Below, in pieces: positions 2,935 through 60,410 of a DNA stretch of 64,000 nucleotides. The DNA is from Acholoe squamosa (Eukaryota; Annelida; Polychaeta; Phyllodocida; Polynoidae), in NCBI GenBank assembly GCA_949317995.1, contig OX439047.1, forward strand, positions 33,952,950-34,016,949, written 5' to 3'. A program made the translations under genes and the position numbers. The notes under the pieces are model-generated. The model did not search any database. It saw only the letters and a program-made list of their open reading frames with translations, and was not told where the DNA came from. Every line of letters begins with the position of its first letter. The first letter of the stretch is position 1.

Positions 2935-4428
2935 ATGATGACTATGGCACACATAAAACTAGAATCTGTAAAGTCATCTGCAGTTGTACCCATGGAAATT
3001 AAACCCAGTGAGGACGATGGGCTTACTAGGACATTTTCTAATTGCACCAACCCCAATGGAATACAGCTGCCAATGCATGTGGACTTCAAGCTGCATTCAT
3101 GCAAAGTATGTGTACAGGGGTTTACACAGGAGCATCTCCTTGCAGCCCACCTCAACTCCCACACTGAGGATGGTTTTAGAGGTATCACAAAGACCAGAGA
3201 CAAGTACCGCAAGGAGGAGGCCCAGCTGTTCACCAGGACTCCAGATGGTTTTTACCATTGTGGGTTTTGCCAGAAGGTTTTCAAAAAGAAGGAATACTTT
3301 AACATACACATAGTGGTGCACAGTGCGGAACGACCCCTCGTGTGTAATTGCGGATTGGGATTCAGAAGGCGGGATGTGCTAGACCAAAACCGACTGCTGC
3401 ACACAGCAGAATACTGCCATACATGCCATATCTGTGGTAAAGGGTTCAAACAGAAACAAAGTCTTACCAAACACCTCTTTGTACATTCTGGACGTCAACC
3501 ATTTTCTTGCAACCAATGTGGGAAGTCATTTGCATTCAAGAGCACCCTCTCCAGGCACCTGCTCACACATGAGCCCAGACAGGAGCCATCCTTCCCATGT
3601 CCCATTTGCAGGAAAGACTTTAAAAGGAGAAACCAGCTTGACAAACATATAAGGACCCATTCAGGGAGGCACCCATTTGTATGTAAAATCTGTGATCAGG
3701 GTTTTCAGCAGGAGACATCCTTGACAACCCACATGTCTGTACATACTGGGAAATTCAAATGTGAAAGTTGTGAGCAATGCTTCACTCACAAGACATTCTT
3801 ATCCAGGCACATTTTAACAAAGCACCCAGAGCAGGGAGCAGAGAAATATAAGTGCGTTTTTTGTGCAGAAGTATTTACATCAGACCCTCAGCGAGCACAG
3901 CACCTGGTGCGACATCATGGTGAGAAACCGCATCGATGCAATGTATGCCAGAGGGGGTTTTCACAGAAGGTGAACCTGGAGGCTCACCTACTGACACATA
4001 GTGGGGGCCAGCTGCATGAGTGTGGAATCTGTGGCAAAGGATTTACACTGAAGTACACCCTAGCCACCCACATGTTAACCCACACAGCTACCAGATCCCA
4101 CACCTGTAGTCAATGTGACAAAGCCTTCACCACCAAGGCACATCTCACCAGGCACCTGCTGGTACATAGTGGTGAGAGGCCCTTTAAATGTGAACTCTGT
4201 GGGAGGTCATTCACCCTCAAATCTCATCTCAAACAGCACATAGCCAGCCATAGAGGGGAGAAGAACCAGAGGTGCTCTGTGTGTGATAAGACCTTTATCA
4301 GGAGGAGCGAACTCTTGACACACATGAAGGCACACTCTGGGGAAAGGCCCTTTAAATGTAGTCAATGTGGGCAAGACTTTACATACAAAAAGCAATTGGT
4401 AAGCCATATCAGTAGACTTCACACGTGA
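2935..4428 (+). CDS. C2H2 zinc-finger protein, 497 residues
   Basis: A single open coding exon. A 3' splice site (TTACTTTCAG, ending about 2884) precedes the ATG by ~50 bases, so the 5' UTR is probably split by an intron. The second Met codon (2938) directly follows the first, so the start is essentially fixed. After ~50 non-finger residues come 15 C2H2 units, roughly residues 55-497, many joined by short linkers of the (H/S)SGERPFKC type. Finger 3 (around residues 137-160) is degenerate: the Cys pair is CNC and the first zinc-binding His is replaced by Asn. No KRAB, BTB, SCAN or ZAD domain is seen. The likely role is sequence-specific DNA binding in the nucleus, inferred from the family. Orthology cannot be assigned by eye because such arrays evolve quickly. 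Confidence 0.9.
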   Translation: MMTMAHIKLESVKSSAVVPMEIKPSEDDGLTRTFSNCTNPNGIQLPMHVDFKLHSCKVCVQGFTQEHLLAAHLNSHTEDGFRGITKTRDKYRKEEAQLFTRTPDGFYHCGFCQKVFKKKEYFNIHIVVHSAERPLVCNCGLGFRRRDVLDQNRLLHTAEYCHTCHICGKGFKQKQSLTKHLFVHSGRQPFSCNQCGKSFAFKSTLSRHLLTHEPRQEPSFPCPICRKDFKRRNQLDKHIRTHSGRHPFVCKICDQGFQQETSLTTHMSVHTGKFKCESCEQCFTHKTFLSRHILTKHPEQGAEKYKCVFCAEVFTSDPQRAQHLVRHHGEKPHRCNVCQRGFSQKVNLEAHLLTHSGGQLHECGICGKGFTLKYTLATHMLTHTATRSHTCSQCDKAFTTKAHLTRHLLVHSGERPFKCELCGRSFTLKSHLKQHIASHRGEKNQRCSVCDKTFIRRSELLTHMKAHSGERPFKCSQCGQDFTYKKQLVSHISRLHT

Positions 4429-5765: not shown

Positions 5766-7155
5766 CATGATACACACTGTGTGTTACAGACATGTCTATG
5801 TACAGTCCATATTTATATTACAGATTACACACTTTGTGTTACAGACATGTCTATGTGCAGTCCATATCTATATTACAGATTATACACTGTGTGTTACAGA
5901 CATGTCTATGTGCAGTCCATATCTATATCACAGATTACACACTTTGTGTTACAGACATGTCTATGTGCAGTCCATATCTATATTACAGATTATACACTGT
6001 GTGTTACAGACATGTCTATGTGCAGTCCATATCTATATCACAGATTACACACTTTGTGTTACAGACATGTCTATGTGCAGTCCATATCTATATTACAGAT
6101 TATACACTGTGTGTTACAGACATGTCTATGTGCAGTCCATATCTATATTACAGATTATACACTTTGTGTTACAGACATGTCTATGTGCAGTCCGTATTTA
6201 TATTACAGATTATACACTGTGTGTTACAGACATGTCTATGTGCAGTCCATATCTATATCACAGATTACACACTTTGTGTTACAGACATGTCTATGTGCAG
6301 TCCATATCTATATTACAGATTATACACTGTGTGTTACAGACATGTCTATGTGCAGTCCATATTTATATTACAGATTATACACTGTGTGTTACAGACATGT
6401 CTATGTGCAGTCCATATCTATATTACAGATTATACACTGTGTGTTACAGACATGTCTATGTGCAGTCCGTATTTATATTACAGATTATACACTGTGTGTT
6501 ACAGACATGTCTATGTGCAGTCCATATCTATATCACAGATTACACACTTTGTGTTACAGACATGTCTATGTGCAGTCCATATCTATATTACAGATTATAC
6601 ACTGTGTGTTACAGACATGTCTATGTGCAGTCCGTATTTATATTACAGATTATACACTTTGTGTTACAGACATGTCTATGTGCAGTCCATATCTATATTA
6701 CAGATTATACACTGTGTGTTACAGACATGTCTATGTGCAGTCCGTATTTATATTACAGATTATACACTGTGTGTTACAGACATGTCTATGTGCAGTCCGT
6801 ATTTATATTACAGATTATACACTGTGTGTTACAGACATGTCTATGTGCAGTCCATATTTATATTACAGATTATACACTTTGTGTTACAGACATGTCTATG
6901 TGCAGTCCATATTTATATTACAGATTATACACTGTGTGTTACAGACATGTCTATGTGCAGTCCATATCTATATCACAGATTACACACTTTGTGTTACAGA
7001 CATGTCTATGTGCAGTCCATATCTATATTACAGATTATACACTGTGTGTTACAGACATGTCTATGTGCAGTCCGTATTTATATCACAGATTACACACTGT
7101 GTGTTACAGACATGTCTATGTGCAGTCCATATCTATATCACAGATTACACACTTA
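5766..7155. repeat. Minisatellite, 25 copies of a 55-bp unit
   Basis: The anchor TTACAGACATGTCTATG recurs every 55 bp exactly, from 5784 to 7104 (24 intervals, 25 copies), with a degenerate tail to about 7200. Variation is limited to a few sites: CTTTG/CTGTG, CATATCTA/CATATTTA/CGTATTTA, and a linked pair ATTAC..GATTAT versus ATCAC..GATTAC. Because 55 is not a multiple of 3 and the unit has no stop in any plus frame, all three forward frames stay open for 460-500 codons. These are repeat artefacts rather than genes: there is no start context, splice site or domain. Confidence 0.95.
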
Positions 7156-13300: not shown

Positions 13301-16300
13301 ATGAGGCTGTGAGTTAGATCCAAGCAGAGACATCATTCAAGATCTCTGATCCAAGGCTACCAATAATATGGCCCCGTGACCTAAGCCTAAGGGTACATAC
13401 CGTCAGTATCATTTGGAAGGCGCCATTTGGAATTCTGTAAACAGTGGTGCATCCAAGATTAAGAGAAGGGGAGAGGGCGCATTATAACTATAGTAGGAGG
13501 TGTATGTCTGACCAACCTCCTCCATTCCCATTCAACCTTTAGGTAAAGCACAGCAAGGAGGGAAGGGGGGGGGGGCATGCCCCCAAGAAAATTTTGCTAT
13601 TCTAGACTAAAAATGGTGGATCATGGTGCATAAATTTGCAGTACCAAATATCAGTACTAAAGACTGTATCTGCCCTCTGTAGTATCATATTTGTAGTATG
13701 AAAATTTCTTTTGGATTTTAGAAATCTAGAGGGATTTGGAGAAACACCTCAAGAAAATTTTTAAGATCCACACTTCACACATCCACACTTCATACTGGTG
13801 TATTCTGGCATACCAGATTTAAGGTTTCAGGTGAATCCTGCTTAAGTACAATTTAGATTGGGAAATTATCAAATATATACAAGATAAGTTCTAAGCCTAG
13901 CGGTTAGAGGAAATGCCCCTTAGAGATTAGCCACTATAAGCAGCTCTGACTACTTAGAGATGTGCCATGAGTAAATTGTTTCTGCCATCTGATCATAAAC
14001 ATATCATCTATGGTGCATCACTCAAGAACTCCTCTGTTATTCACCAAAAGCAGTTTCTCAAAGTTATTTTGTTTTCAATGCCTTAAGAATACCTATTGAT
14101 CTGACCACCGTTTTTCTATACTTCTCATGCATTTCTTATTATCATTGAGAGAAAAGACCAAAGTCCAGTTTGAACTGGTCTTGAAACTGAAAATACCGGT
14201 ACTGTACACGATAACGGATAAGGCACACCTTTAATTAACTCGGAAAGAGATATAGGCACCACCGTGGATTAAGACGGATTTGGCCAAACTTTGTGGAAAT
14301 AAAGCATCAAAGAACTGTTATTTTACAAAAATATGTTCACATATAGGTAGAGTAATAATGTTGAGATCATGAATATGTTGGATGGTCATTGAATAAATCT
14401 GTGATGTTTCCACAATTCTTGGATTACAAAATGTTGTATAGAAAAAGCAGAGAGGTGACACTTTGGCTCTCTAATGCTAAAGAATACACATTCCATCGGG
14501 AAACCTTTTTTCCCGCCCTTTTGTGGTGTGTTAACCAGCTGCAGTGCTGAGGTCAGACCTTTGGTAATATCTGGTGATACACATTACAAAAAGGCCACAT
14601 ATTTCAAAAGATTATTTCATCTTTTGTTGTTAACCATCAGAGGAGAAAACCTCTTTCTGAGTTATCAGCAATTTCATTGCTTTCCTCTAGTTAAAAACTG
14701 TTCCTTGTAAAAAAAAAAAACCTTCAAAAATGATAGAACTACTGGGTGGAATTGGACATATAATATGCCATTTTGAAGCTCTTGGTTTGCGCTTTCCGGG
14801 ACATACACCCTCCGTGCGGGACACAAGACAAAGAGCCAATTTCCGGGACTGTCCCGGACATTCCGGGACGGTTGGCATCTCTGCACATGGTATCCACAAG
14901 ACTAAGTTGTTTAGATTGAGTATCATAATCGTCTGTGTCACTCCCGTTCATATACGGGAGTACTAGGGAACAAGGGGACGCGTGTGTTATCAAAGGATAA
15001 TTAAACGAGGGTGCAGCCCGAGTTTAATTATCCTTTGTTAACACACACAAGTCATGAATTATCAATTAACTACTTATTTTATTACACGAAAACCCCCTCA
15101 ATAAATAATCAATAGAATATCAATAGAAAAAAATCACCTCTATGCCAGGACCGGGACTCGACATGCTACTGACTGGTCCATACCTTCTATAGAGCCAAAA
15201 AGTTGGTAAGGTTTGACAGTTTGCACCGCGAAAAAGATGAACCAGGCCGGGGCTTGAATACCTACGGCTACACCTGGGGTTTGGAGTGCTACTCGCTGGC
15301 CACTATACTATTGGTACACACACCTTGGTACCCGGCAGCTGCTGGCTTGGTTTGAACGCGTCCAGCAGTACCGTATATCCTCATGTTAAGGCCTGGTCAA
15401 TTTGCCACTTGTCTTAGGGAGTGGTCATTTTTGAACAACAGGGGGGTTGGTGGGTTTTGGGGGGACAACAACATTTCAGAGTGACAGCCCGCAAGCGCGG
15501 AATTTCACCAACCCCCCCGTTGTTAAAAAATGACCACTCCCTTAGTGGTTTAGGTAGTAGGTACTAATACATCCAGGCATTACAAGGGGAAATATGGTAT
15601 GTCGCTGTCTTGGCTATGGGTCAGGCAGCTCTGGCCACTATAGTATTCTCCTAACCAAATTCTACTGCAGCTATTCTGGTCAGTCCCTGTGGCGCAATGC
15701 ATAGGTAGTTGGAGTTGGATTTGGGATGAGTAGGGTATGGGTTCAACCCCTGCCCTTGGATAACCGCACACCTTACAAAGTTCATGATGCATGCAGGGCT
15801 TTTGACAGGATTTTTTGCAATGCGCCAATTGCACACTTTTTAGCAAATACAATGCGCCATTCTGTAAATGAATGGCCATTCTAGCCATTTAAATGTGACA
15901 TTTAGGCATTAAATGCGTGTATTGCGCACTGCGCAGCCCTGTCAAAAGCCCTGAGGCTGTGCATGCATCATCATCATGTAGGTACGTGAATGAAAGGGCT
16001 GCTATAAGCGCGGACCATGTCCTAGAAAACTGTGACAGGTTTGGGAGGTGTGTGCAGGGATAGGTCTCAGTGATTAGCTTTAAAATTATAGAAATAGTTG
16101 ATGAATAAGGTTCCTGATATTTTATCTGCCAAGAAGACAAGATTTCCTTTGATTTAGTGTTTCAATTTTGTATGAACTCTAATTAGTTAATTAATTACCA
16201 CCTTAATTAGGTCAATGTTTTAGTAATCTCTCATTCATTATATGATAGAACTTAGGAAGTCGAACAAAAACATATAGAACAGCAAGTACATAGTCTTAAC

Positions 16301-17331
16301 CTCATCTCTACCAAATATGAAGGAATTCTATCGACGAGCACATAGGTTTCTAGGATCAGCCAACTTAAATTTCAGCTAATTTTGATGGTTTTTCTCAACT
16401 TTTTATATTCATAAATTCATATCTCTGACCCTAGTGGTCATATCAGCTTCATTTAAACTGCATTGTATCCGTAAAGTCATTGGCTTTCAGGAAATATATG
16501 GTTTGCTATGATATATCTCTTTTCAAATTATGGCAATAATGTAGCTAAAGGTCACACACAATTCCTCTTTGTAGAGTTTAATTTCATGACGAAAATTTGA
16601 CCAACCTTGTCTCACAAAAACCTCAATAACTCACCCAAAAATGACCTTAAAATTACAATTCAAAAAGCATGTTGCTTCTCACATATGTGCGGAAAAGACT
16701 GTGCCAAAAACCAAGAGCTCTCATGTGTTTAAAATTTTTAGTCACATACCTACATCATGCCATGCAATATCGCCAGGTATGTGCATGGGAATATCCAGGA
16801 AAAGCACTCGGAATCACAGAAAATTGAGAAATCATGTAATAAAGTAGAGATACGAAAGTGGTTGTGCCCTCCCCCGGCTCATCCCCCCGACTGAGTATCG
16901 TCTCTCCATGTGGGTATTTAGAAATTCTAGGCCCTACAGTACTACTGCACTCCCGGGGCGGGGGGCACTTCAATTTTTTTGATACAGGTATGTGGCTGAA
17001 CCCACGACAACCCTTACCCTTGCTAGTAGGGCACTCGTTTGCGGGGTTTCTCTTCGAAAGCCTACCCTTGCTAGGGCACTTTTGACTCAATAATCCTAGA
17101 TTCGTTTCAAAATGTCTTAAAGTTACACTGATTGGAGAGAAAATTGAATTTGGTTTATGATATTATCATGAAAACTGTGCTTATGTCCAAGAAAATTGTC
17201 CCGGGACTGCACTGTCACTGGCACTGACGTTGAATCGATCGGGGAGGTGAGGATATACTCTACGTCTACGAATCGATCAATCATGTCAAGGAAGCCGCCG
17301 ATCTCTTACCTTCTTCGTCGGTTTCTGCCAT
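7339..17331 (-). CDS. Large disordered protein with a candidate PKA-anchoring helix and SxLP motifs (1208 residues)
   Basis: Two coding exons. Exon 1 (17331-17310) encodes MAETDEE plus one base and ends at a GTAAGA donor. An in-frame TGA lies 12 codons upstream of its ATG, which has A at -3 and G at +4. Exon 2 (10943-7339) follows a CTTTTTCCTTTCAG acceptor, and the phases join as G|AT, giving Asp then MLPGLDWDSF. The protein is acidic to Ser/Pro-rich and mostly disordered. In exon-2 numbering, residues 248-345 hold degenerate 11-12-residue KDES/SPEK repeats. Residues 369-395 form a strong amphipathic helix with hydrophobic spacing L-x2-FA-x2-LV-x2-AI-x2-A, which fits the AKAP RII-binding consensus. 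Residues 646-669 are a 12-residue duplication. SKLP occurs at 684 and 734 within basic SPRR/SPNK context and fits the EB1-binding SxLP pattern. No globular domain is recognised, and the family is unknown. The anchoring and microtubule roles are inferences from motifs. Confidence 0.75.
11257..11835 (-). mobile_element. Retroposed element with poly-A tail and 15-bp target-site duplication
   Basis: AGTCCAGGAGCTGGA occurs as a perfect direct repeat at 11242-11256 and 11836-11850. A run of 21 T directly follows the left copy, so on the minus strand the 579-bp insert ends in poly-A next to its target duplication. This is the hallmark of LINE-machinery retroposition. The body has no open frame and is not recognised. 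It may be a SINE or a processed RNA, and a B-box-like TTCGAA sits near its 5' end (11793-11798). It lies in intron 1 of the 1208-residue gene. Confidence 0.65.
12577..12928. mobile_element. MITE-like element rich in CACGTTT/AAACGTG
   Basis: The outer ends are inverted: CCATAAAAATCCCACGTTTT on the left, and AAACGTGAATATTTTTATGG on the right. Many internal CACGTTT and AAACGTG motifs make it strongly self-complementary. There is no coding capacity, and the target duplication is unclear. Confidence 0.55.
12929..15400. other. Intron sequence with GGGGGGCATGCCCCC-type repeats, no gene
   Basis: Segments near 13114-13160 and 13566-13620 share a poly-G run, GGCATG..CCCCC and AAGAAAATTTT followed by AAATGG..GCAT. 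They resemble the repeats at 27.8-29.4 kb. No exon is recognised. A CGGGAC/GTCCCG-rich patch lies at 14795-14870, and an inverted repeat around 14980-15050 pairs GTGTGTTATCAAAGGATAAT with ATTATCCTTTGTTAACACAC. Confidence 0.4.
15417..15541. mobile_element. GGGAGTG-family MITE, TTA target site (125 bp)
   Basis: TIRs GGGAGTGGTCATTTTTGAAC and the complement of GTTAAAAAATGACCACTCCC are flanked by TTA on both sides (15414-15416, 15542-15544). This is the shortest copy of the family. A 3-bp TWA duplication is typical of PIF/Harbinger; the superfamily assignment is an inference. Confidence 0.8.
15979..16752 (+). mobile_element. 774-bp nonautonomous DNA transposon, copy A
   Basis: Ends are TAGGTACGTGA and its imperfect inverse TCACATACCTA. 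A perfect 7-bp direct repeat, CATCATG, flanks it (15972-15978 and 16753-16759). There is no long open frame. The body is about 95% identical (by eye) to the reverse complement of copy B. It lies in intron 1 of the 1208-residue gene. Confidence 0.85.
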
Positions 17332-18055: not shown

Positions 18056-18829
18056 TAGGTATGTGACTAAAAATTTTAAACACATGAGAGCTTTTGGTTT
18101 TTGGCACAGTCTTTTCCGCACATATGTGAGAAGCAATATGCTTTTTGAATCGTAATTTTAAGGTCATTTTTGGGTGAGTTATTGAGGTTTTTTTGAGACA
18201 AGGTTGGCCAAATTTTCGTCATGAAATTAAACTCTACAAAGAGGATTTGTCTGTGACCCTTAGCTACATTATTGCCATAAATTGAAAAGAGATATATCAT
18301 AGCAAACCATATATTTCCTGAAAGCCAATGACTTTACGGATACAATGCAGTTTAAATGAAGCTGATACAACCACTAGGGTCAGAGATATGAATTTATGAA
18401 TATAAAAAGTTGAGAAAAACCATCAAAATTAGCTGAAATTTAAGTTGGCTGATCCTAGAAACCTATGTGCTCGTCGATAGAATTCCTTTATATTTGGCAG
18501 AGATGAGGTTAAGACTATGTACTTGCTGTTCTATATGTTTTTGTTCGACTTCCTAAGTTCTATCCTATAATGAATGAGAGATTACTAAAACATTGACCTA
18601 ATTAAGGTGGTAATTAATTAGCTAATTAAAGTTCATACAAAATTGAAACACTAAATCAAAGGAAATCTTGTCTTCTTGGCAGATAAAATATCAGGAACCT
18701 TATTCATCAACTATTTCTATAATTTTAAAGCTAATCACTGAGACCTGTCCCTGCACACACCTCCCAAACCTGTCACAGTTTTCTAGGACATGGTCCACGC
18801 TCATAGCAGCCCTTTCATTCACGTACCTA
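18056..18829 (-). mobile_element. 774-bp nonautonomous DNA transposon, copy B (inverted)
   Basis: It has the same length and terminal repeats as copy A, in the opposite orientation. Its own 7-bp direct repeat, CTTATAT, flanks it (18049-18055 and 18830-18836), so it inserted independently of copy A. It lies about 0.7 kb upstream of exon 1 of the 1208-residue gene. Confidence 0.85.
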
Positions 18830-31580: not shown

Positions 31581-32936
31581 GTTGATGATAAAACAACGCC
31601 CCCTTTTTCACTGTAATCTGTGATTCTGTCAATAAGGAAACCAAAATTCTATTTCTGATTGCGATTCCGGAAGTGACCAAGGTCTGCCGACTTAAAATTT
31701 TAAAATTCTCGGAAAATATCTAGATTTTCTAAGAATGGTAGGCGTATATGTTCAAATTACCTGTTGATCAAGAAATGTTAACAAAATTGTTTTTAGTTTG
31801 TTGATTTTAGGTATTATTTAGTATGTATTATCGAAATACAGATTTATAAATGATATAAATAAATAGAGAGTGTTGTGATACCTAAGTCAGCGGATTGTTT
31901 AGTTATGTTTGGACAAGTGCACTTGTAGAACGGAGTTTAAGTTTTCTCTGGATTTAGATCGTAAATCAACTATTTACCCAGGTCAGACCTATTTTAATAT
32001 GGTTAGATATAAAAAACCAAAGTATCGTTAGATTTTGTAGAAGATAACAACTTGCTCTCCCCAAGTAATCTAAACTGAGTGTGACTGTGTCTGTGAGTCT
32101 GTCACTCTGTAGTGTAGTGGTACCGGGACCCATGGCCCTAGAGACCGATGGCCCCGAAGACCGATGGCCCCAAGTGGGACCGATGGCCCTAGAAAATGAG
32201 ACTGATGGCCCCAACTTTTAAACCAGGGTCCATCCCACCTCTATCACCTATCTTCAATAACCATGCATATCTATGACACTTTCCATGTTACACTTGATTG
32301 AAAATTATATGAAAAAAAAGATAATTATTAAGAAAAAATGTTGAAAAAAAATTTAAAAAAAAAATTTTCAGATGTGCTTTCTATATTCAATCCATACATA
32401 AACACAATTAAATCACATGTCTTACATATGTTTTAACCATATATTCTATGATTTATTTGCCATTTTAATAAACAGCTTTCTTTATTTATGACATAGCAAT
32501 CACATACAATAACATTAATGACATAGCAATCACATACAATAACATCAGTACAAGTATCACATTCTTTGATATTACAATAACAATGTAATACCATATCACA
32601 TTTAAACACAATTAAATCTTATGTCTTACATATGTTTTAACCATATATTCTATGATTTATTTGCCATTTTAAGACACAGCTTTCTTTATTAATGACATAG
32701 CAATCACATACAATAACATTAATGACATAGCAATCACATACAATAACATCAGTACAAATATCACATTCTTTGATATTACAATAACAATGTAATACCATAT
32801 CACATTTAAACACAATTAAATCTTCATCTGTTACAGTGTTGAATCGACCTTACACTGGTTTGCACAAGTGGTATGTTATATATATTTTTCAGCTTTGATC
32901 TGTTTCAGCACACAACACAGTTTGTAGCCCTCCAGG
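31581..32936. promoter_or_regulatory. Shared 5' region between ATG3 and CEP63
   Basis: The two start codons face away from each other across 1356 bp. The region contains short repeats of GACCGATGGCCC (32113-32215) and a 204-bp tandem duplication (32401-32823). The CEP63 ATG is preceded by possible acceptors (for example TGTTTCAG near 32908), so a 5' UTR exon may lie here. No TATA box is assigned. Confidence 0.45.
32401..32823. repeat. Tandem duplication, 204-bp period with a nested 31-bp repeat
   Basis: AACACAATTA starts at 32401, 32605 and 32809, exactly 204 bp apart. Each unit holds two copies of AATGACATAGCAATCACATA. Confidence 0.85.
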
Positions 32937-35900: not shown

Positions 35901-38900
35901 GGGGACTCCAAGACCTTTCTTTTGATATGTTACATGCCCCCTTAGCCATAATAGGATATATGGGGGCCCAGGGGGGTCTATGGGGCCCAAGTTACACATA
36001 GGTCTTTGAATTTTGAAAATTCATTCAGTAGAACCAAAGTTATGAATTTCTCATATTTTTGAGAATTTTCCAAAACGCCTTATACGCGGGCTGTGCCTTA
36101 TTTGCGGGAATTACGGTAGTTTACCTATTACTTGAGTTATACGAGAAACAAGTAGCCATGATATGCATATGCTCGGTAGGGATGGTATTCCTTCACTTTT
36201 TGCAGATTTTTTTTTTTAACTTTTGCATAAAGAGCACGAAAGTCCTGTAACTTTTTTTTCATTATGTTTATCAGAGAGTGGCATCTCTCTGCATGTAAGA
36301 GGATCTAAAGAACTGGCTTGTTCAACATTTTAGCAACAGTCAACTGGGTACCAGACCCAATTGGACAAGCGGCGAGACATGCTGGACTCGGCTGAGCTGA
36401 CTTTGCGGTCACAGATCACACAGTTAGAAGGACAGCTGACCCGCGCCCGGGACACTATCAACGCACAGGTAACCACTGCTTTCACACTCACAACGGCCAT
36501 CTATTTAGGCAGGTGTGCCTTTGTATAAAGGGACTGAGAAAAAGAAGAGAGTCAGCTGTGTGAGTTAGGAAGGGGAAAAGAGAGAGTCAACTGTATAAGT
36601 TAAAACAGTGCTTGTGAAAAAAAATCACCACCTCGGATTCCATACGATATGTCATTTTTCACTGGTGATTTCATTACATAGATCTAGATCCCTTGCTAAT
36701 ATAGTCATAAATGGACTACACCTGAGAAATAAGAAAAGTGATAAGAATATATGTATGATTGTTACTTTGATCTACCAGGATTCACAGCTCACCCACTTGA
36801 AGACAACGCTGGAGGATGCTGTGTCATCACAAAGACGGGGCCTGGAGGAGAAGGAGCAGACAGAGGAGACAGTACAGCGAGCACAGGCCAAAGTTAGGGT
36901 GAGTCATTGTCAGACAGTTCCCCACAGTAACAGGGATGGAAGTTTTCAGGGATTTTCAAGAAAATAACTTGTTAATACTTTTTAGACATCTAACTTTTCA
37001 TAAACGATTGTGAAATACTCCTCAATTCTCTATTTTTCTTTTGGCCACTACTGTAATCTCCCGCGTATAAGGCGCGTCTTATACAAGGGGTTTTAGTTAT
37101 CCCCAAATCCACAAGGGGGATATCAAGACCTTTCTTTTGATATGTTACACTTCCCCTAAGTCCTAATAGGACATAATGTGGGCCAGAGGGGTCTGGGGGA
37201 CCCTAGGTACACATAGTTTTTTTAACTTTTAAAATCCATTTAGTAGAACAAAAGATATGAATTTTTGGTAATATTTACAAACTCTGGGTGCGCCTTATAC
37301 GCGGGCTGCGCCTTATATGAGGGAGATTACGGTATATCTTATAGAGTCTGGAGACTGATTTAGCACGGTGCCAGTCAGAGCTGGATGCTCAGAAGGCTCA
37401 CGTGACAGCAGTGGACAGTACAAGTGAGCAGCTCGCGCGGGAAAAGGAGCGTCTCGAGAAGGCGCTCGGTGAGAGGGATGCATCCATACAGTAAGTGACT
37501 TAACGTGTGCTGAATAACTAGTGGGTGCTGTGTTCAATCCTAATGTGTGATCTAATGCTGTGTGTTTTATAATCTGCATTAATGTGAGAGAGTGGACCCC
37601 ATCTAGTCTGCAGTTACAACAAGGATTGCCTTGTGGATAGGTCTGGTTGACTTATTATTAGAAAAGGTGTACATTAAGTATAGTCAGTTTATACAAGTGT
37701 TATCATTTATCATAACTATGTAATATGTTTTCACATAATCGTGGTTTAGTTTAAGTGTTCTATAACCCTTGTAACTGATTCAAACCCACGCCATCCCCAA
37801 TATCATCATTGTTTGAGTAACATCATATTGATATGTATATAGGGAGTGTTGTGATACTGACCGTGTAACCTGAGTTTGTGTGGATTTTGTGGAATTGTTC
37901 TTATTGACCGTTAACAGCCGAATCAAACACAGCGTCATGCTCGAACAGACAAAGATTGTTGCTAAGCTGCGGAACGAGATTGAAGTTCTCCTAAATGACA
38001 ACCAGTAAGATTATATGATATTGAATAGAGACAACGGTTTTGTTTCCTACTGTCTACCGAAAAATACATGTAATTATTAAATTACAAAATTACTTTATAG
38101 CATGAATCTTGACTACGGAAGGTACTTGCCAAATGACAATGTTTAATAACGATTCAAGGCACTTTCAATTCTATAAATGCTATAATGTGCAGAATATGCA
38201 TTTAATAAGTGTGCACTTCACAATAGTATTAAACTTATTGACTGTTATTCAAAGGAACACAACCATTGTTTTCAGTACTGTGAATGTGATTTGAGTTGAT
38301 ATTAACTAAGGCCACACCAAAAAAATAAGTTTTTTGGAGTTGCAAGCCGCGTAAGCGGCCGGGAGCGTAGCGACCGTGCAACTTCATTATGGTTTCGGTT
38401 TGTCAGTGACGTCACGCTCACCTTGTGACGCAATTTGTGACGTCATACGTCGGCCGTGACGTCACATGTCAGCGCAGAGTGCAAATCCTATCCATGGTCC
38501 TTGCCACATTTTTCTTGTTGGTTTTGAAAAAATGGTGTGAGCGAGCGATTTTTTTTTCTTTTTCTTTTTTTAAAGAATTTTTTGGCGTCCAATGGATACC
38601 TTGGTGGGAAAGTAAGGCGAGCAACAATTTTTTTTTCTTTTAATTTTGCCAAACATCACAAAGAGAAAACTTGAAGAAACTGAAGCGGGCGAAATCCGTA
38701 TACAAGATTTTTTTCAAAGAAAAAAAATTTTGTATTTCCGAAAATATGGAGAGGGCGATCCGTAGACCAACTTTTTTGGTGTGGCCTAATGGATTAATAA
38801 TTAAGAGGAGAATTTTGTAATTTGTAAATAGAAAGTCATTATGTATTTAACACATGGGAACTGGGATAAGCTTTCTGATTAACCTCTTGATTAAATTGAA

Positions 38901-49113: not shown

Positions 49114-49512
49114 TTAACATAAATTGATATGTAAATAGGGATTATACATAGCATTTCCAGGGACCTTACACTACACAGTAACGTGGCTTATAAGGTCGCT
49201 GGAATTACCTTCATGTTGTGATAAATTTATATTGTTTGTGCCAAAGTGATTGATGTGTACTTGATCTAGAAAGATAATGTATGCATATCACATTGCTGAT
49301 GAATTCCGTCCATTTGCTCAACCTTACTATTTGTATTACTCGTATTTATAACTAATTACTAAATAAATGAGAAACATGAACAGATATTGCTTGGATGACC
49401 ATTTTGTTTATTTCTTAGTGATTAACACCAGTAATGTGAGATTCTGACCTCAGTCTACACCCTTTCACATATCCTCCCATAATGTTCTTATTTGGAGATT
49501 TTATGTCCCTTA

Positions 49513-49831
49513 GGAGGTGATCATTTTTTAACAACAGGGGGGGGGGTGGTGGGTTTGGGGGGGGTCAGAATTTTTTCAACCCCTTGACTGGGGGGGGGGT
49601 TAGAATTTTTCCAACCCCTCTAATGAGGGGGTCAAAATAATTTCACCCGTTTTCAGTGGAAAACCCTGTGCATTACTATAGGGTAAAAAGGCACGTTCGC
49701 ATGCCATTTCCGCCCCTTGTGGGGGGGGTCAAATTTTTTTTACCCCATCAAGAGGAGGGGTCGGAATTTTTTTCGTGCGTCCGCTCGCAAACCCACCAGC
49801 CGACCCCTGTTTTTAAAAAATGATCACTCCC
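49513..49831. mobile_element. GGGAGTG-family MITE, TTA target site (319 bp)
   Basis: TIRs start GGAGGTGATCATTTTTTAAC and end AAAAAATGATCACTCCC, flanked by TTA on both sides. It ends 29 bp from the stop codon of the reeler-domain gene, so it probably forms part of that gene's 3' UTR. Confidence 0.8.
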
Positions 49832-54438: not shown

Positions 54439-54741
54439 TTAATTTATAATAATTTCAAAGAATCCTCTATATCAAACACGTAACCCAATAGATAGACAAA
54501 GGGGTCTGTGAACTGAAAATAATAAATTTCCTGTTGATAATTAAATTTTCATCAAACTTACCTCTTAGACTTTGTGCCTAGCTCTATGATATCCACTGCA
54601 TGAACACCTTTACCTATACTCACAACTGTCCTATAGTCAGGTGTTTAGGTGCTGGGATACCATGCACTAGCTGGTGGTTTCCCCTCACCGATCAATACTG
54701 AAAATCAATAAGTCATGCTCCCTTGAACACTGTTTTGCTTA

Positions 54742-55059
54742 GGGAGTGATCATCTTTTAACAACAGGGGGGCTGGTGGGTTTGCGGGTGGACGCGCAAAA
54801 AAAATTCCGATCCCCCCTCTCGATGGGCCAGAAAAATTTTTGACCCCCCTTAAGGGCCGAAAATAGTGTGCAAACGCACCCTCTTAACCTATAGTAACAC
54901 GCAGGCTTTTTCACCGAAAACAGGTGAAATAATTTTGACCCCCCCTGGTCAAGGGGTCGAAAAAGTTCTGACCCCCCTGGTCAAGGGGTCGAAAAAATTC
55001 TGACCCCCCCTCAAACCCACCAGCCCCCCCCCCCGTGTTGTTAAAAAATGATCACTCCC
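54742..55059. mobile_element. GGGAGTG-family MITE, TTA target site (318 bp)
   Basis: TIR GGGAGTGATCATCTTTTAAC on the left, and the inverse of GTTAAAAAATGATCACTCCC on the right, flanked by TTA. It carries one extra internal copy of TCAAGGGGTCGAAAAA relative to the 54161 copy. Confidence 0.85.
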
Positions 55060-55721
55060 TTAGTCATGTTCAAGTCCAGCTGGTGCCTCTTACAGAAAGG
55101 ACAAATAAATTGCTCTTGAGGATATACTAATGGGTGCACTATATTTTTCATGTGTAGGCTACATGCTATATCGGTCTTTTTTGGAAAGGAGGCATATGAA
55201 TTGGTAATGGTAGGCCTATGGTTCTATACGGAGGTTGCAGGTTCTTTGGTAAGGGGCACCGTTGCATGATCTGTATACTGGAGAGTTAAGCACTGAAAAC
55301 AACCAGCATGATGGGTACCAGCTAATACCGGTATGTAATGTACTCTAAAAGGTCTGCACTGAATGAAATGAATTATCTCATTTATCAATAATGTATCTCA
55401 CTAATATAGGATTATGTATGTGTGTGCGTGTGTGTGTGTGTGAGTTGCAGCAGGGCCGATGGTCAGCTTTCTGTGTCTCTGAAGGACACAGCAGCAGCTC
55501 ATTATGTAGTCTCCTTGAAGGATACAACCAACTGACCAATCAGGAGCTGGCTTCTGCTGCACAGCTGCATGAGACCAAGATGCTGAACTTTGTGATACCT
55601 ATTCAATGCATAAGTGCACTGATCTTTCCAGGGTAAAACTTAAAGCAGTATCTGTTCTTTGAAATAGTTGCAAACAAGTTGATATTCTTCTATTCATCAC
55701 TGCTCATTATTTGCTCACTTA

Positions 55722-55770
55722 GGGAGTGGTCATTCTTTATGAACAGGGGGTTGTGGGTTTGAGGGGGGTA
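55722..55770. mobile_element. Truncated GGGAGTG-family end inside the left outer arm
   Basis: GGGAGTGGTCATTCTTTATG preceded by TTA. Its mirror copy sits at 59799-59847 in the right outer arm, so this piece was inside the arm before the palindrome formed. Confidence 0.7.
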
Positions 55771-55949
55771 TACAAATTTAAGAAAAGAAAAATTTGATCC
55801 CTCTTGGGGGAGGCTAAAAGAATTGACCCTCTTTTTAGCAAGAAAGCCCGGGCACTACTATAGATAAAAGAGAGGCGCAAAAATTCTCCTCGGCTCCGGC
55901 TCATTAGGGCACAATAAATTTTGACTGTCTTTGAGGGGGGGACAAAAAC

Positions 55950-56352
55950 CCATCACTGTCCTTGAAGGATACAAGCAGACTATTACATCCTTGAAGGACA
56001 CAAGTAGAGCACTGCGTCCTTGAAGGATACAAGTAGGCTAGTGTGTCCTCCAAGGACACAAGCAGCCCACTGCATCCTTGAAGGCTATAAGCAGCCCACT
56101 GTGTCCTTGAAGGATACAAGCAGACCACTGCATCCTTGAAGGAAACAAGGAGATCACTGCGTCCTTAACAGATACAAGGAGACTATTGTGTCCTTGAAGG
56201 ACACAAGAAGAACACTGTATCCTTGAAGGACACAAGCAGAACACTGTGTTCTCGAAGGATAAAAGCAGAGCACTGTGTCCTTGAAGGATACAAGCAGGCC
56301 AATGTGTCCTTGAGGGATACAACCAGACCATTGTGTCCTTAAAGGATACATT
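55950..56352 (-). repeat. 29-bp minisatellite, inverted block
   Basis: About 14 copies built on CCTTGAAGGATACAAGCAGA with CACTGTGT or CACTGCAT linkers. This is the reverse complement of the block at 56925-57534. Open frames of the LYPSRTQWSA type arise from the repeat. Confidence 0.85.
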
Positions 56353-56924
56353 TATATGTGAGTAATCAATAATTTTCTATGGACATGTACATGTTCTGTT
56401 ACCGGATGTGCTGAGGGCAATTGAACAAAATTTGAGACCAAAGTTTGTGATTACCAGAATCATCAACAACCGCATGTCAATGCCATCCCTAGGATTAGTG
56501 CACATTTAAACTGCACATTTAAACTGCACAAACATGCCAAAGAAGGTAAATGACTGGGGACCACCCTCGAAAGTAGGTCATGAGGGGTGCGTTAGGTTGT
56601 TAAATTTTATCTCTTACTACGTCTGCACACATGTCAGATTCTTTGAAGATTCAGAGAAAAGGTGACTTAATGTTACAATTTTAGGGGGTATATTCAAAGA
56701 TTATTTTTTGGGGGATTTTAGATGCAAAAATTTGATTGGGGGTTCGGGGGCAGAGCCCCGAAAAGGGTTAATTCTTAACTCTATGTCCGGTTTTCAGCGG
56801 TACTGAATGCACCGTTCATGACCTGTATTTTGGGACTGGTCCCCTGTCATTTACCTTATAAGCGCTGCTGACTTTTCAACATGGAACCTCGCTATACTTC
56901 TAGAACACATGCTGCAGTGGTCAG

Positions 56925-57534
56925 CTTGTATCCTTCAAGGACACAATAGTCTCCTTGTGTACCTTAGATACCAGTACACAGTGGTGTGCTAGTGTCTTGA
57001 AGGACATGCTGATCTTCTATATCCTCCACAGACGGGCTGGTCTGCTTGTATCCTTCAAAGACACAGTGGTCAGCTTATATCCTTCAAGGACACAGTGGGT
57101 CGTTGTATCCTTCAAGGACACAGTGGGCTGCTTGTGTCCTTTTAGGACACAGTGGGCTGCTTGTGTCCCTCAAGGATGCTATGGTCTGCTTGTATCCTTC
57201 AAGTTCAAGGGCACAGTGGGCTGCTTGTGTCCTTGGAGGACACAGTGGGTCGCTTGTGTCCCTCAAGGATGCAGTGGTCTGCTTGCATCCTTCAAGGACG
57301 CAGTGATCTGATTGTATCCTTCAAGGATGCAGTGGTCTGATTGTATCCTTCAAAGACACAGTGGTCTGCTTGTATCCTTCAAGGATGCAGTGTTCTACTT
57401 GTATCCTTCAAGGACACAGTGGTCTGCTTGTATCCTTCAAGGATGCAGTGTTCTACTTGTATCCTTCAAGGACACAGTGGTCTGCTTGTATCCTTCAAGG
57501 ATGCAGTGGTCTGCTTGTATCCTTCAAGGACAGA
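56925..57534 (+). repeat. 29-bp minisatellite, direct block
   Basis: About 20 copies of a unit built on TGGTCTGCTTGTATCCTTCA with GGACACAG or GGATGCAG. Exact 29-bp spacing is seen at 57362, 57391 and 57420. The 29-bp unit keeps several frames open for ~100 codons, which accounts for the open frames here. Confidence 0.9.
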
Positions 57535-59785
57535 CCCAGTCAACAAAAAAACGTTATTTAAAGTCAAGAAAACATTTTCAACGTTTTAAAATGTTTAGCC
57601 ATAATAAGGAGCCATAGGGAAACATTCTGAAATGTTTTATAACGTTTTTTGGGGAGTGGCCATTATTTATCAACAGGGGGTGGTGGGTTTTCGCGCAGAC
57701 ACACGATAATTTTTGACGCCCCTGGGGTGCCCCCCCCTTAACAGAAGTCAAAATTTGTTGTGTCCCCCAGTTTGGGAGTTTGTGCACCCCTCTTTGATCT
57801 ATAGTAGTGCACAGGCTTTTTTGCTAAAAGCAGGGTAAATTTTTTGGGCCCCTCCGCAAGAGAGGTCAAAATTGTATTAGCCCCCCCTTGGGAGGGGTCT
57901 GAAACTTTTATGCCCCCCCCCTTAACCCACCACACCCCCCTGTTGATAAAAAAATGACCACTCCCTAAAAAATTTTGACCCCTCTTGAGGGGGGGCTAAA
58001 AGAATTTACCTTCTTTTTAGCCCAAAAGCTGTGCGCTACTATAGATCAAAGAGGGCTGTGGAAATTCTCAGTGCCTCCAGCACATTGGGGGGGGGCCACA
58101 AAAAAATTACAGTCAAGGAGGGGGTGAAAAAATGTTGTGCGTCCACGCGAAAACCCACCACCACCCCCCTGTTGATATATGTTGACCACTACCTTAGACC
58201 TGCCAGCTGTTGTGTCCTTGAGGGACACTAGACTAGCCCACCCCAATGTGTCAACAAAGAATTGGTGTTGTGTCCTTCAGGGACACAAGGCTAGCCCACC
58301 CATGCACTGTGTCAAAAAAGCTTTGAATCCAGGATCATCATCCATAGACAAAATAAATGAGCATTTTAATTTCTTTCTATCACTATTTTGATCTGTCAAA
58401 TTCTATAACAAAGAAAAATTCTGCCTATTTATTCAGAAATCAGTGTGTTTGTGCTTTGAATGCAGGCTGTAGAAGGTCCACCATCTTGGTTTTAGCAGCT
58501 GCCATCTGCTGCTGCAGAGACCGGCTCCTGATTGGTCAATTGCTTGTATCTCTGCAGGACACAAGGGCTTGTATCCTTCAGGGACACAGAAAGCTGACCA
58601 ACGGCCCTGCTGCGAAGTGCGCGCATCCCAGCAGCAGGGCCGTTGGTCAGCTTTCTGTGTCCCTGAAGGATACAAGCCCTTGTGTCCTGCAGAGATACAA
58701 GCAATTGACCAATCAGGAGCCGGTCTCTGCAGCAGCAGATGGCAGCTGCTAAAACCAAGATGGTGGACCTTCTACAGCCTGCATTCAAAGCACAAACACA
58801 CTGATTTCTGAATAAATAGGCAGAATTTTTCTTTGTTATAGAATTTGACAGATCAAAATAGTGATAGAAAGAAATTAAAATGCTCATTTATTTTGTCCAT
58901 GGATGATGATCCTGGATTCAAAGCTTTGTTGACACAGTGCATGGGTGGGCTAGCCTTGTGTCCCTGAAGGACACAACACCAATTCTTTGTTGACACATTG
59001 GGGTGGGCTAGTCTAGTGTCCCTCAAGGACACAACAGCTGGCAGGTCTAAGGTAGTGGTCAACATTTATCAACAGGGGGGTGGTGGTGGGTTTTCGTGTG
59101 GACGCACAACATTTTTTTCACCCCCTCCTTGACTGTAATTTTTTTGTGGCCCCCCCCAATGTGCTGGAGGCACTGAGAATTTCCGCAGCCCTCTTTGATC
59201 TATAGTAGCGCACAGCTTTTGGGCTAAAAAGAAGGTAAATTCTTTTAGCCCCCCCTCAAGAGGGGTCAAAATTATTTAGGGAGTGGTCATTTTTTTATCA
59301 ACAGGGGGGTGTGGTGGGTTAAGGGGGGGGGGCATAAAAGTTTCAGACCCCTCCCAAGGGGGGGCTAATACAATTTTGACCTCTCTTGCGGAGGGGCCCA
59401 AAAAATTTACCCTGCTTTTAGCAAAAAAGCCTGTGCACTACTATAGATCAAAAAGGGGTGCACAAACTCCCAAACTGGGGGACACAACAAATTTTGACTT
59501 CTGTTAAGGGGGGGGCACCCCCGGGGGCGTCAAAAATTATCGTGTGTCTGCGCGAAAACCCACCACCCCCTGTTGATAAATAATGGCCACTCCCCAAAAA
59601 ACGTTATAAAACATTTCAGAATGTTTCCCTATGGCTCCTTATTATGGCTAAACATTTTAAAACGTTGAAAATGTTTTCTTGACTTTAAATAACGTTTTTT
59701 TGTTGACTGGGTCTGTCCTTGAAGGATACAAGCAGACCACTGCATCCTTGAAGGATACAAGCAGACCACTGTGTCTTTGAAGGAT
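57460..59785. repeat. Inner palindrome, ~1.15-kb arms, 17-bp spacer (58614-58630)
   Basis: The left arm ends CCGTGCTGC-like (GGCCCTGCTGC, 58603-58613) and the right arm begins GCAGCAGGGCC (58631). CCCAGT at 57535-57540 pairs with ACTGGG at 59706-59711, only 2 bp off perfect symmetry over more than 1 kb. The arms contain GGGAGTG-family MITE copies (about 57654-57966 and its mirror 59280-59592) and a CCCAGTCAAC fragment. Confidence 0.9.
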
Positions 59786-59929
59786 ACAATCAGACCAATA
59801 CCCCCCTCAAACCCACAACCCCCTGTTCATAAAGAATGACCACTCCCTAAGTGAGAAAATAATGAGCAGTGATGAATAGAAGAATATCAACTTGTTTGCA
59901 ACTATTTCAAAGAACAGATACTGCTTTAA

Positions 59930-60001
59930 AGGCACTCTGAATCGAGGAACTACGTCCGCCGACGTTAGCACTGTGGCAGACGTAGCCGATTCAGAGCTCC
60001 T
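59930..60001. mobile_element. 72-bp MITE in a TTAA target site
   Basis: Inverted ends AGGCACTCTGAATCG and CGATTCAGAGCTCCT, with CTACGTC/GACGTAG inside, are flanked by TTAA (59926-59929 and 60002-60005). The mirror position in the left outer arm (near 55637) has the uninterrupted site, with a single TTAA. Confidence 0.85.
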
Positions 60002-60410
60002 TTAAGTTTTACCCTGGAAAGATCAGTGCACTTATGCATTGAATAGGTATCACAAAGTTCAGCATCTTGGTCTCATGCAGCTGTGCAGCAGAAGCCAGCT
60101 CCTGATTGGTCAGTTGGTTGTATCCTTCAAGGAGACTACATAATGAGCTGCTGCTGTGTCCTTCAGAGACACAGAAAGCTGACCATCGGCCCTGCTGCGT
60201 GTGAGTTGGTGTAACCAGCAAATTGGGGACATTTATGGGAACACACACCTACAAACTGGGGACATCTTGCGATCCGGGGACGTCTCACTTTGCATGACCT
60301 TGAGAAAAGGGGGGCTATGGGCTTGGGCATCAGTAATGACCTTGAAAATGGTTATAAACATGATTTCTAGTGTGTCAACAAAATGTCCCCAATTTGACCT
60401 TAAGAGACTT

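Follow-up and report, generated by a model that had tools for sequence, protein, structure and literature searches.

An inverted pair of foldback elements within a single 9 bp target-site duplication in the annelid Acholoe squamosa

A composite of two element copies and its dispersed family

We examined a 64,000-nucleotide stretch of the genome of the polychaete Acholoe squamosa (contig OX439047.1 of assembly GCA_949317995.1, forward-strand positions 33,952,950 to 34,016,949), here called the window and numbered from its first base, in which an earlier note had described a composite foldback element made of nested palindromes and moved as one unit. The composite occupies positions 55447–60198 and runs from GCAGCAGGGCCG to CGGCCCTGCTGC between two copies of the 9 bp sequence GTGTGAGTT, which lie directly outside these termini at 55438–55446 and 60199–60207 as the left and right target-site duplications. 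The note had recognized this repeat as the boundary of the unit, as we also find, and had suspected that the match is partly favoured by the GT-rich composition of the left flank. The GT run alone does not account for the match, as 9/9 identity arises by chance at a frequency of 6e-5 in 200,000 trials with a first-order model of the 60 bp GT-rich left flank. A third copy of GTGTGAGTT in the window, at 36558, is unrelated to the composite. The 12-base terminus GCAGCAGGGCCG or its complement is present at the four arm ends, at 55447, 58602, 58631, and 60187, and at no other site in the window, in agreement with the note; an 18-base terminus pattern with up to three mismatches gave four matches, compared with 0.02 expected.

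Alignment resolves the composite into two copies of one element, referred to as E1 and E2. E1 (55447–58613, forward strand) is a complete 3167 bp copy running from an A end to a B end, as delimited by alignment with E2 and with the single copies described below; E2 (58631–60198, reverse strand) is a second, inverted copy of 1568 bp, and the two B ends face each other across a 17 bp spacer, GAAGTGCGCGCATCCCA, at 58614–58630. When reversed, E2 aligns to E1 over its whole length with 1480 matches, 9 mismatches, and four single-base indels, the remaining differences being the absence from E2 of 1561 bp (E1 55772–57332) and 116 bp (four units of 29 bp), and the presence in E2 of 76 bases lacking in E1. 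These extra bases are accounted for by a 72 bp miniature inverted-repeat transposable element (MITE) at 59930–60001 with TTAA on both sides (59926–60005 overall), an insertion in the right arm that the note had overlooked. The outer arms of 324 bp, inner arms of about 1.15 kb, and 17 bp spacer that it reported hold as measured lengths (55447–55771 is identical to 59798–60198 at 324/325 positions aside from the 76 extra right-arm bases, and the inner arms, 57436–58613 and 58631–59810, lie 17 bp apart), but because E2 is E1 minus two stretches, the outer and inner arms are one arm split by a deletion. The structure is thus a single pair of element copies in inverted orientation, one of which has lost internal sequence, and nested palindromes are rejected. 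The junction of the 1561 bp deletion is at 59797–59798, with no microhomology in the bases flanking the break, and its 121 bp context has a full-length match at this locus only among the 40 scored of 900 candidates. Near the middle of the spacer is a perfect 8 bp palindrome, TGCGCGCA, of a kind found in 5.8% of shuffled spacers at any position and in 1.2% at a central one.

The A-end terminal repeat of E1 (55447–55712, forward) matches the B-end repeat (58351–58613, reverse) at 198/288 columns. Interior to these lie the inverted minisatellite blocks that the note had described, the left at 55957–56350 (forward; 13.6 units of 29 bp by tandem-repeat analysis, with the palindromic core TCCTTGAAGGA) and the right at 56913–57532 (reverse; 81% alike over 435 columns). 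Extended inverted arms at the termini, with tandem repeats just inside them, are characteristic of the foldback class, and the 9 bp duplication, exact in 12 of 40 paired copies of the family, lies within the 8–11 bp range of Mutator (MULE) elements. Between the minisatellites is a central segment, U (56351–56913, forward), without a recognized coding match; an inverted pair of 52 columns (79%) within it, at 56543–56857, is perhaps another old MITE. The B arm of E1 carries a MITE of the GGGAGTGG...CCACTCCC family at 57652–57965, with its E2 counterpart at 59279–59594, and relatives of this MITE are scattered in the window (15417–15541, which has TTA on both sides, 54732–55070, 49510–49831, and others). 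The motif TCCYTSARGGA occurs 32 times in 55447–60198 and 0 times in the rest of the window, and TCCTTGAAGGA with two mismatches 43 times compared with 2. One copy of the minisatellite-core motif is 66 bp from the A end and another, with one mismatch, is 30 bp from the B end; these placements suggest multiplied transposase-binding sites, as proposed for Galileo in PMC4079207 and other literature.

The element belongs to a numerous dispersed family. A search of the genome (1.48 Gb in 63 contigs) with the first 211 bp of the E2 B end yielded at least 41 matches at 98–100% identity, two of them in the window; this is a lower bound, with 40 of 473 candidates scored. We retrieved 32 of the other 39 places, and 25 of the 30 loci first fetched are complete single elements extending from A end to B end over 2.8–4.4 kb (monomers), in all of which both ends start with 5'-GCAGC. 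A further single unit, L040, has two ends recognized by pattern only, 1839 bp apart, within an exact 9 bp duplication, and six loci (L019, L020, L025, L026, L031, and L041) with no A end within the fetched stretch were excluded from the paired counts. Seven monomers, L009–L015, are 98.9–99.4% identical to E1 along 2956–3166 aligned bases and 97.8–99.8% identical in U (in two pieces in L012). Since the family already carried its MITEs, their symmetric positions in the two arms reflect descent; the note had read this symmetry as evidence that the palindrome formed after the MITE insertions, a reading that is not supported: the MITE-bearing single unit is dispersed, and E1 and E2 seem to be separate copies of it. 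The 72 bp MITE at first seemed unique to E2, and this was dropped when it was found beside the A end in L009, L010, and L011 also (97% identity). Searches for the terminus in IMG/VR and GTDB, and for the minisatellite in IMG/VR, gave no matches.

Movement of the pair and alternative origins

The duplication is present at the outer ends only. The inner flanks GAAGTGCGC and CGCATCCCA share just 1/9 and 0/9 bases with GTGTGAGTT by hand count, supporting the proposal of the note that sub-units without duplications of their own arrived in one insertion. Two elements and their intervening DNA thus lie within one duplication with none at the inner ends, the arrangement expected of a macrotransposon, and the unit is bounded by an A end on either side, unlike the 25 complete monomers, which all combine one A with one B end. 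Matches to the B-17-B junction with up to three mismatches, to the spacer alone, and to exact 12-base termini facing each other within 30 bp were found genome-wide at this site only. Judged from its sequence, the composite is real, with ordinary parts in an unusual arrangement, and we estimate a probability of about 0.75 that two adjacent tail-to-tail foldback copies used their outer A ends to move, in one event, as a macrotransposon. In this scheme, E1 and E2 would have been brought to within 17 bp of each other elsewhere, either by adjacent insertion or by joining of broken flanks, such that the spacer would be former host DNA. Transposase supplied in trans would have brought together the A ends of E1 and E2, and all of the DNA between them would have inserted into the present GT-rich site, with loss of the central 1.56 kb of E2 either before or after the move.

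E1 and E2 appear to be separate members of one family. With the minisatellite set aside, E2 has 4 differences from L010, 6 from each of L009 and L011, and 9 from E1, and there are no bases common to E1 and E2 that are absent from all 25 monomers. T at 55713 is common to E2, L010, and L011 only and is the one clean diagnostic base; A at 58147 is shared by E2 with L010 and eight other copies. In a phylogenetic comparison of 13 copies over 1404 shared columns with the minisatellite excluded, an E1+E2 clade is rejected by the approximately unbiased (AU) test with a p-AU of 0.013.

These relationships bear most directly on inverted duplication of a single copy, in which copying would have turned back on itself at a break or hairpin at the E1 B end, with part of one arm lost later. 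That the arms differ at only 9/1489 aligned bases, that A-arm and B-arm divergence are not different (p 0.69), and that the spacer has its 8 bp palindromic core are all consistent with such an origin. Fusion in place, however, predicts a right flank that is the reverse complement of the left, and this is not seen (local score of 15, compared with a mean of 19 in 100 shuffles), so that inverted duplication too needs a later move to this site. Moreover, E2 is nearer to L009–L011 than to E1 and shares the 72 bp MITE with them, and the E1–E2 pair has no private bases. With the base comparisons, MITE sharing, and AU test all disfavouring it, we consider inverted duplication unlikely.

Less probable still, and in our view improbable, are separate insertions of E1 and E2 at this locus, or recombination here between family copies, in which case just one of the events would have left the 9 bp match. 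The family is numerous, and in two monomers, L013 and L029, the flanking repeats do not match (in register they have 7 and 9 mismatches, although L029 fits when shifted by one base). But each sub-unit would then be expected to keep its own repeat, as do a pair of 774 bp inverted copies of another family in the window (15979–16752 and 18056–18829, with ends TAGGTAYGTGA), each of which retains its own exact 7 bp duplication (CATCATG and CTTATAT); this is the look of separate insertions. The inner flanks of the composite are unlike GTGTGAGTT even allowing for the changes seen in other family members, where one to four bases are altered and five stay as they were, and outer ends of A and A are not the one A and one B of the monomers. 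A wrong assembly join between two repeat copies is very unlikely in spite of the difficulty of assembling long near-identical arms, as a wrong join would rarely give matching outer 9 bp repeats, the right flank is not the fold-back of the left, and neither the spacer nor, among the candidates compared, the deletion junction occurs elsewhere.

Several observations weigh against a single move of two different copies. Support for grouping E2 with L010 and L011 is modest (77/78), and four further positions that group them (57451, 57455, 57456, and 57470) are in the minisatellite, where the alignment is uncertain. L009 has the 72 bp MITE but not T at 55713, such that MITE and lineage disagree in part, and the lineage evidence, consisting of one clean base and the MITE, is thin. 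Neither a donor site nor a second copy of the composite was found in the 1.48 Gb genome, and the move therefore rests on one duplication at one site, although the donor of a cut-and-paste event may have disappeared. No Pfam match above cut-off was obtained with the nine frames in the composite (of 57 frames of at least 45 aa); a transposase was not found there, and this copy looks non-coding. Finally, an exact duplication is not the rule in the family, with 28/39 paired flanks being inexact. The note had proposed examining whether other copies make 9 bp duplications; the family does make them, and a single insertion is not refuted.

Unequal target-site duplications

The inexact duplications are a more surprising result than the composite itself. 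Exact 9 bp duplications flank 7/25 complete monomers and 11/39 of all paired copies (12/40 once L040 is added), compared with 0/600 cross-pairings of the 25 monomers. The larger set includes 14 further pairs drawn from 100 listed of 150 ends (19 pairs were formed, with 5 already in the first set), using an end pattern that excluded ends with C as the tenth flank base. In unequal pairs, positions 6–9 of the B-side copy tend towards G, C, A, and G, and positions 1–4 of the A-side copy towards C, T, G, and C, the changed bases often being just those nearest position 5. At one-sided sites, where exactly one flank carries the template base, the base completing a hairpin with the element tip (CTGC-N5-GCAG) is on the predicted side in 79/81 cases, and in 22/23 cases in the 14 pairs not used in forming the rule; the nominal p values of 3e-21 and 6e-6 overstate the significance, as sites within one copy are not independent. 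Where the change is most complete, the tip of the element and its complement, separated by five bases, could form a 4 bp stem with a 5 nt loop, the length being kept within the 9 bp duplication.

The pattern is specific in position. GC is found at flank positions 6–7 in 47/100 listed ends, compared with 3–15 at other offsets, and GCAG at 6–9 in 20/100, compared with 0–2; for the 25 monomers (50 flanks) no clear excess extends past position 9. In the genome as a whole, N5-GCAG is found at 49 ends and the reversed pattern at 0. A target preference for GCAG, in place of a change made during or following insertion, is disfavoured, as 0/12 exact duplications have GCAG at positions 6–9 and partial changes keep the remaining bases. 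There are also departures from the rule. Among 92 differing sites at positions 1–4 and 6–9, 11 have no template base on either side and 2 have it on the wrong side, three pairs differ at position 5, L013 is without a duplication, L029 fits only with the one-base shift, and the pair at C4:10702118 is irregular.

We tentatively suggest, with somewhat more doubt than confidence, that the family transposase leaves a templated mark in which one to four bases of the far part of the duplication are replaced in register by complements of the element tip. The assignment of one flank as the original is based on the match to the template; a relative of L012 with an empty site, about 70% alike, is unreadable at the insertion site. 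The origin that we favour is aborted excision, in which hairpin-ended intermediates with a 5 nt loop of flanking DNA would be opened off-centre and resealed, and flap removal during resealing would keep the length of the duplication. Alternatively, the mark could come from templated repair of gaps during insertion. The E1 inner flank, GAAGT-GC, is compatible with such a mark, although two bases prove nothing. A literature search found no account of unequal duplications of this kind, which is not proof of absence, and we know of no description of hairpin-ended, 5 nt loop chemistry for foldback elements with 9 bp duplications.

Setting, significance, and relationship to known systems

Also in the window are an exon of CEP63 and a gene for a C2H2 zinc-finger protein, both indicative of animal DNA. 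At 5774–7153 there is a 25-copy minisatellite with a 55 bp unit that is open in all three forward frames (478–522 aa), 55 not being a multiple of three, and at 32399–32824 a 204 bp tandem duplication with 97% matches.

If the proposed move is correct, the composite would be a natural animal case of two foldback elements travelling as one, and would illustrate a route by which such elements could transport host DNA and give rise to large palindromes with no need for copying in place. The family may in addition preserve a readable trace of a transposition step, in the form of paired duplications differing by a rule tied to the element tip. Should this trace reflect hairpin-ended intermediates, then comparing sequences would be enough to learn about the cleavage chemistry of the transposase, and it may be worthwhile to look again at other target duplications regarded as 'degenerate'.

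Membership of Merlin and of Galileo is disfavoured on the features reported for them. Merlin elements are described as having a terminal 5'-GG and an 8–9 bp duplication (PMC8101967), and the ends here start with 5'-GCAGC; Galileo, of the P superfamily, has a duplication given as 7–8 bp (PMC4168063), compared with 9 bp here. Closer parallels are the foldback elements Tm1 of root-knot nematodes (PMC3169594) and Tetris of Drosophila virilis (PMC4079207), both placed in the Mutator superfamily and described, like the family here, as having long compound terminal repeats, variable numbers of tandem units, mostly non-coding copies, and target duplications of 8–10 bp, mostly 9; PMC4079207 also cites the TU elements of sea urchins. 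Unlike Tm1 and Tetris as reported, the elements here have a 29 bp unit built round an 11 bp palindrome and termini of GCAGCAGGGCCG, and no transposase was found in the composite frames. Rehavkus, reported from arthropods and annelids (PMC6446971), shares the 9 bp duplication and a minisatellite adjoining a terminal repeat, but its published description includes a transposase with a PHD finger and a minisatellite that precedes the 3' repeat, whereas minisatellites are on both sides here and no transposase was seen.

In a search of titles and abstract openings, an inverted composite of this kind was not described. Plant MULEs with multiple terminal repeats, in the account of PMC3310237, likewise have inner termini without a recognizable duplication of their own and one round the whole, but these are mostly tandem (48/61 in tomato) or have one solo extra repeat, unlike the two whole inverted elements here. 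A head-to-head VANDAL21 pair in Arabidopsis is associated with rearrangements in which the ends of two elements are reported to be used jointly (PMC12312487). In maize, the ends of two nearby Ac/Ds elements are also described as acting jointly to form composite insertions and macrotransposons (PMC4270019, PMC9910405). Those elements are classified elsewhere and make 8 bp duplications, and the event proposed here carried only 17 bp between the elements and is known from sequence alone; nonetheless, both have DNA carried between two elements and a duplication at the outer ends only.

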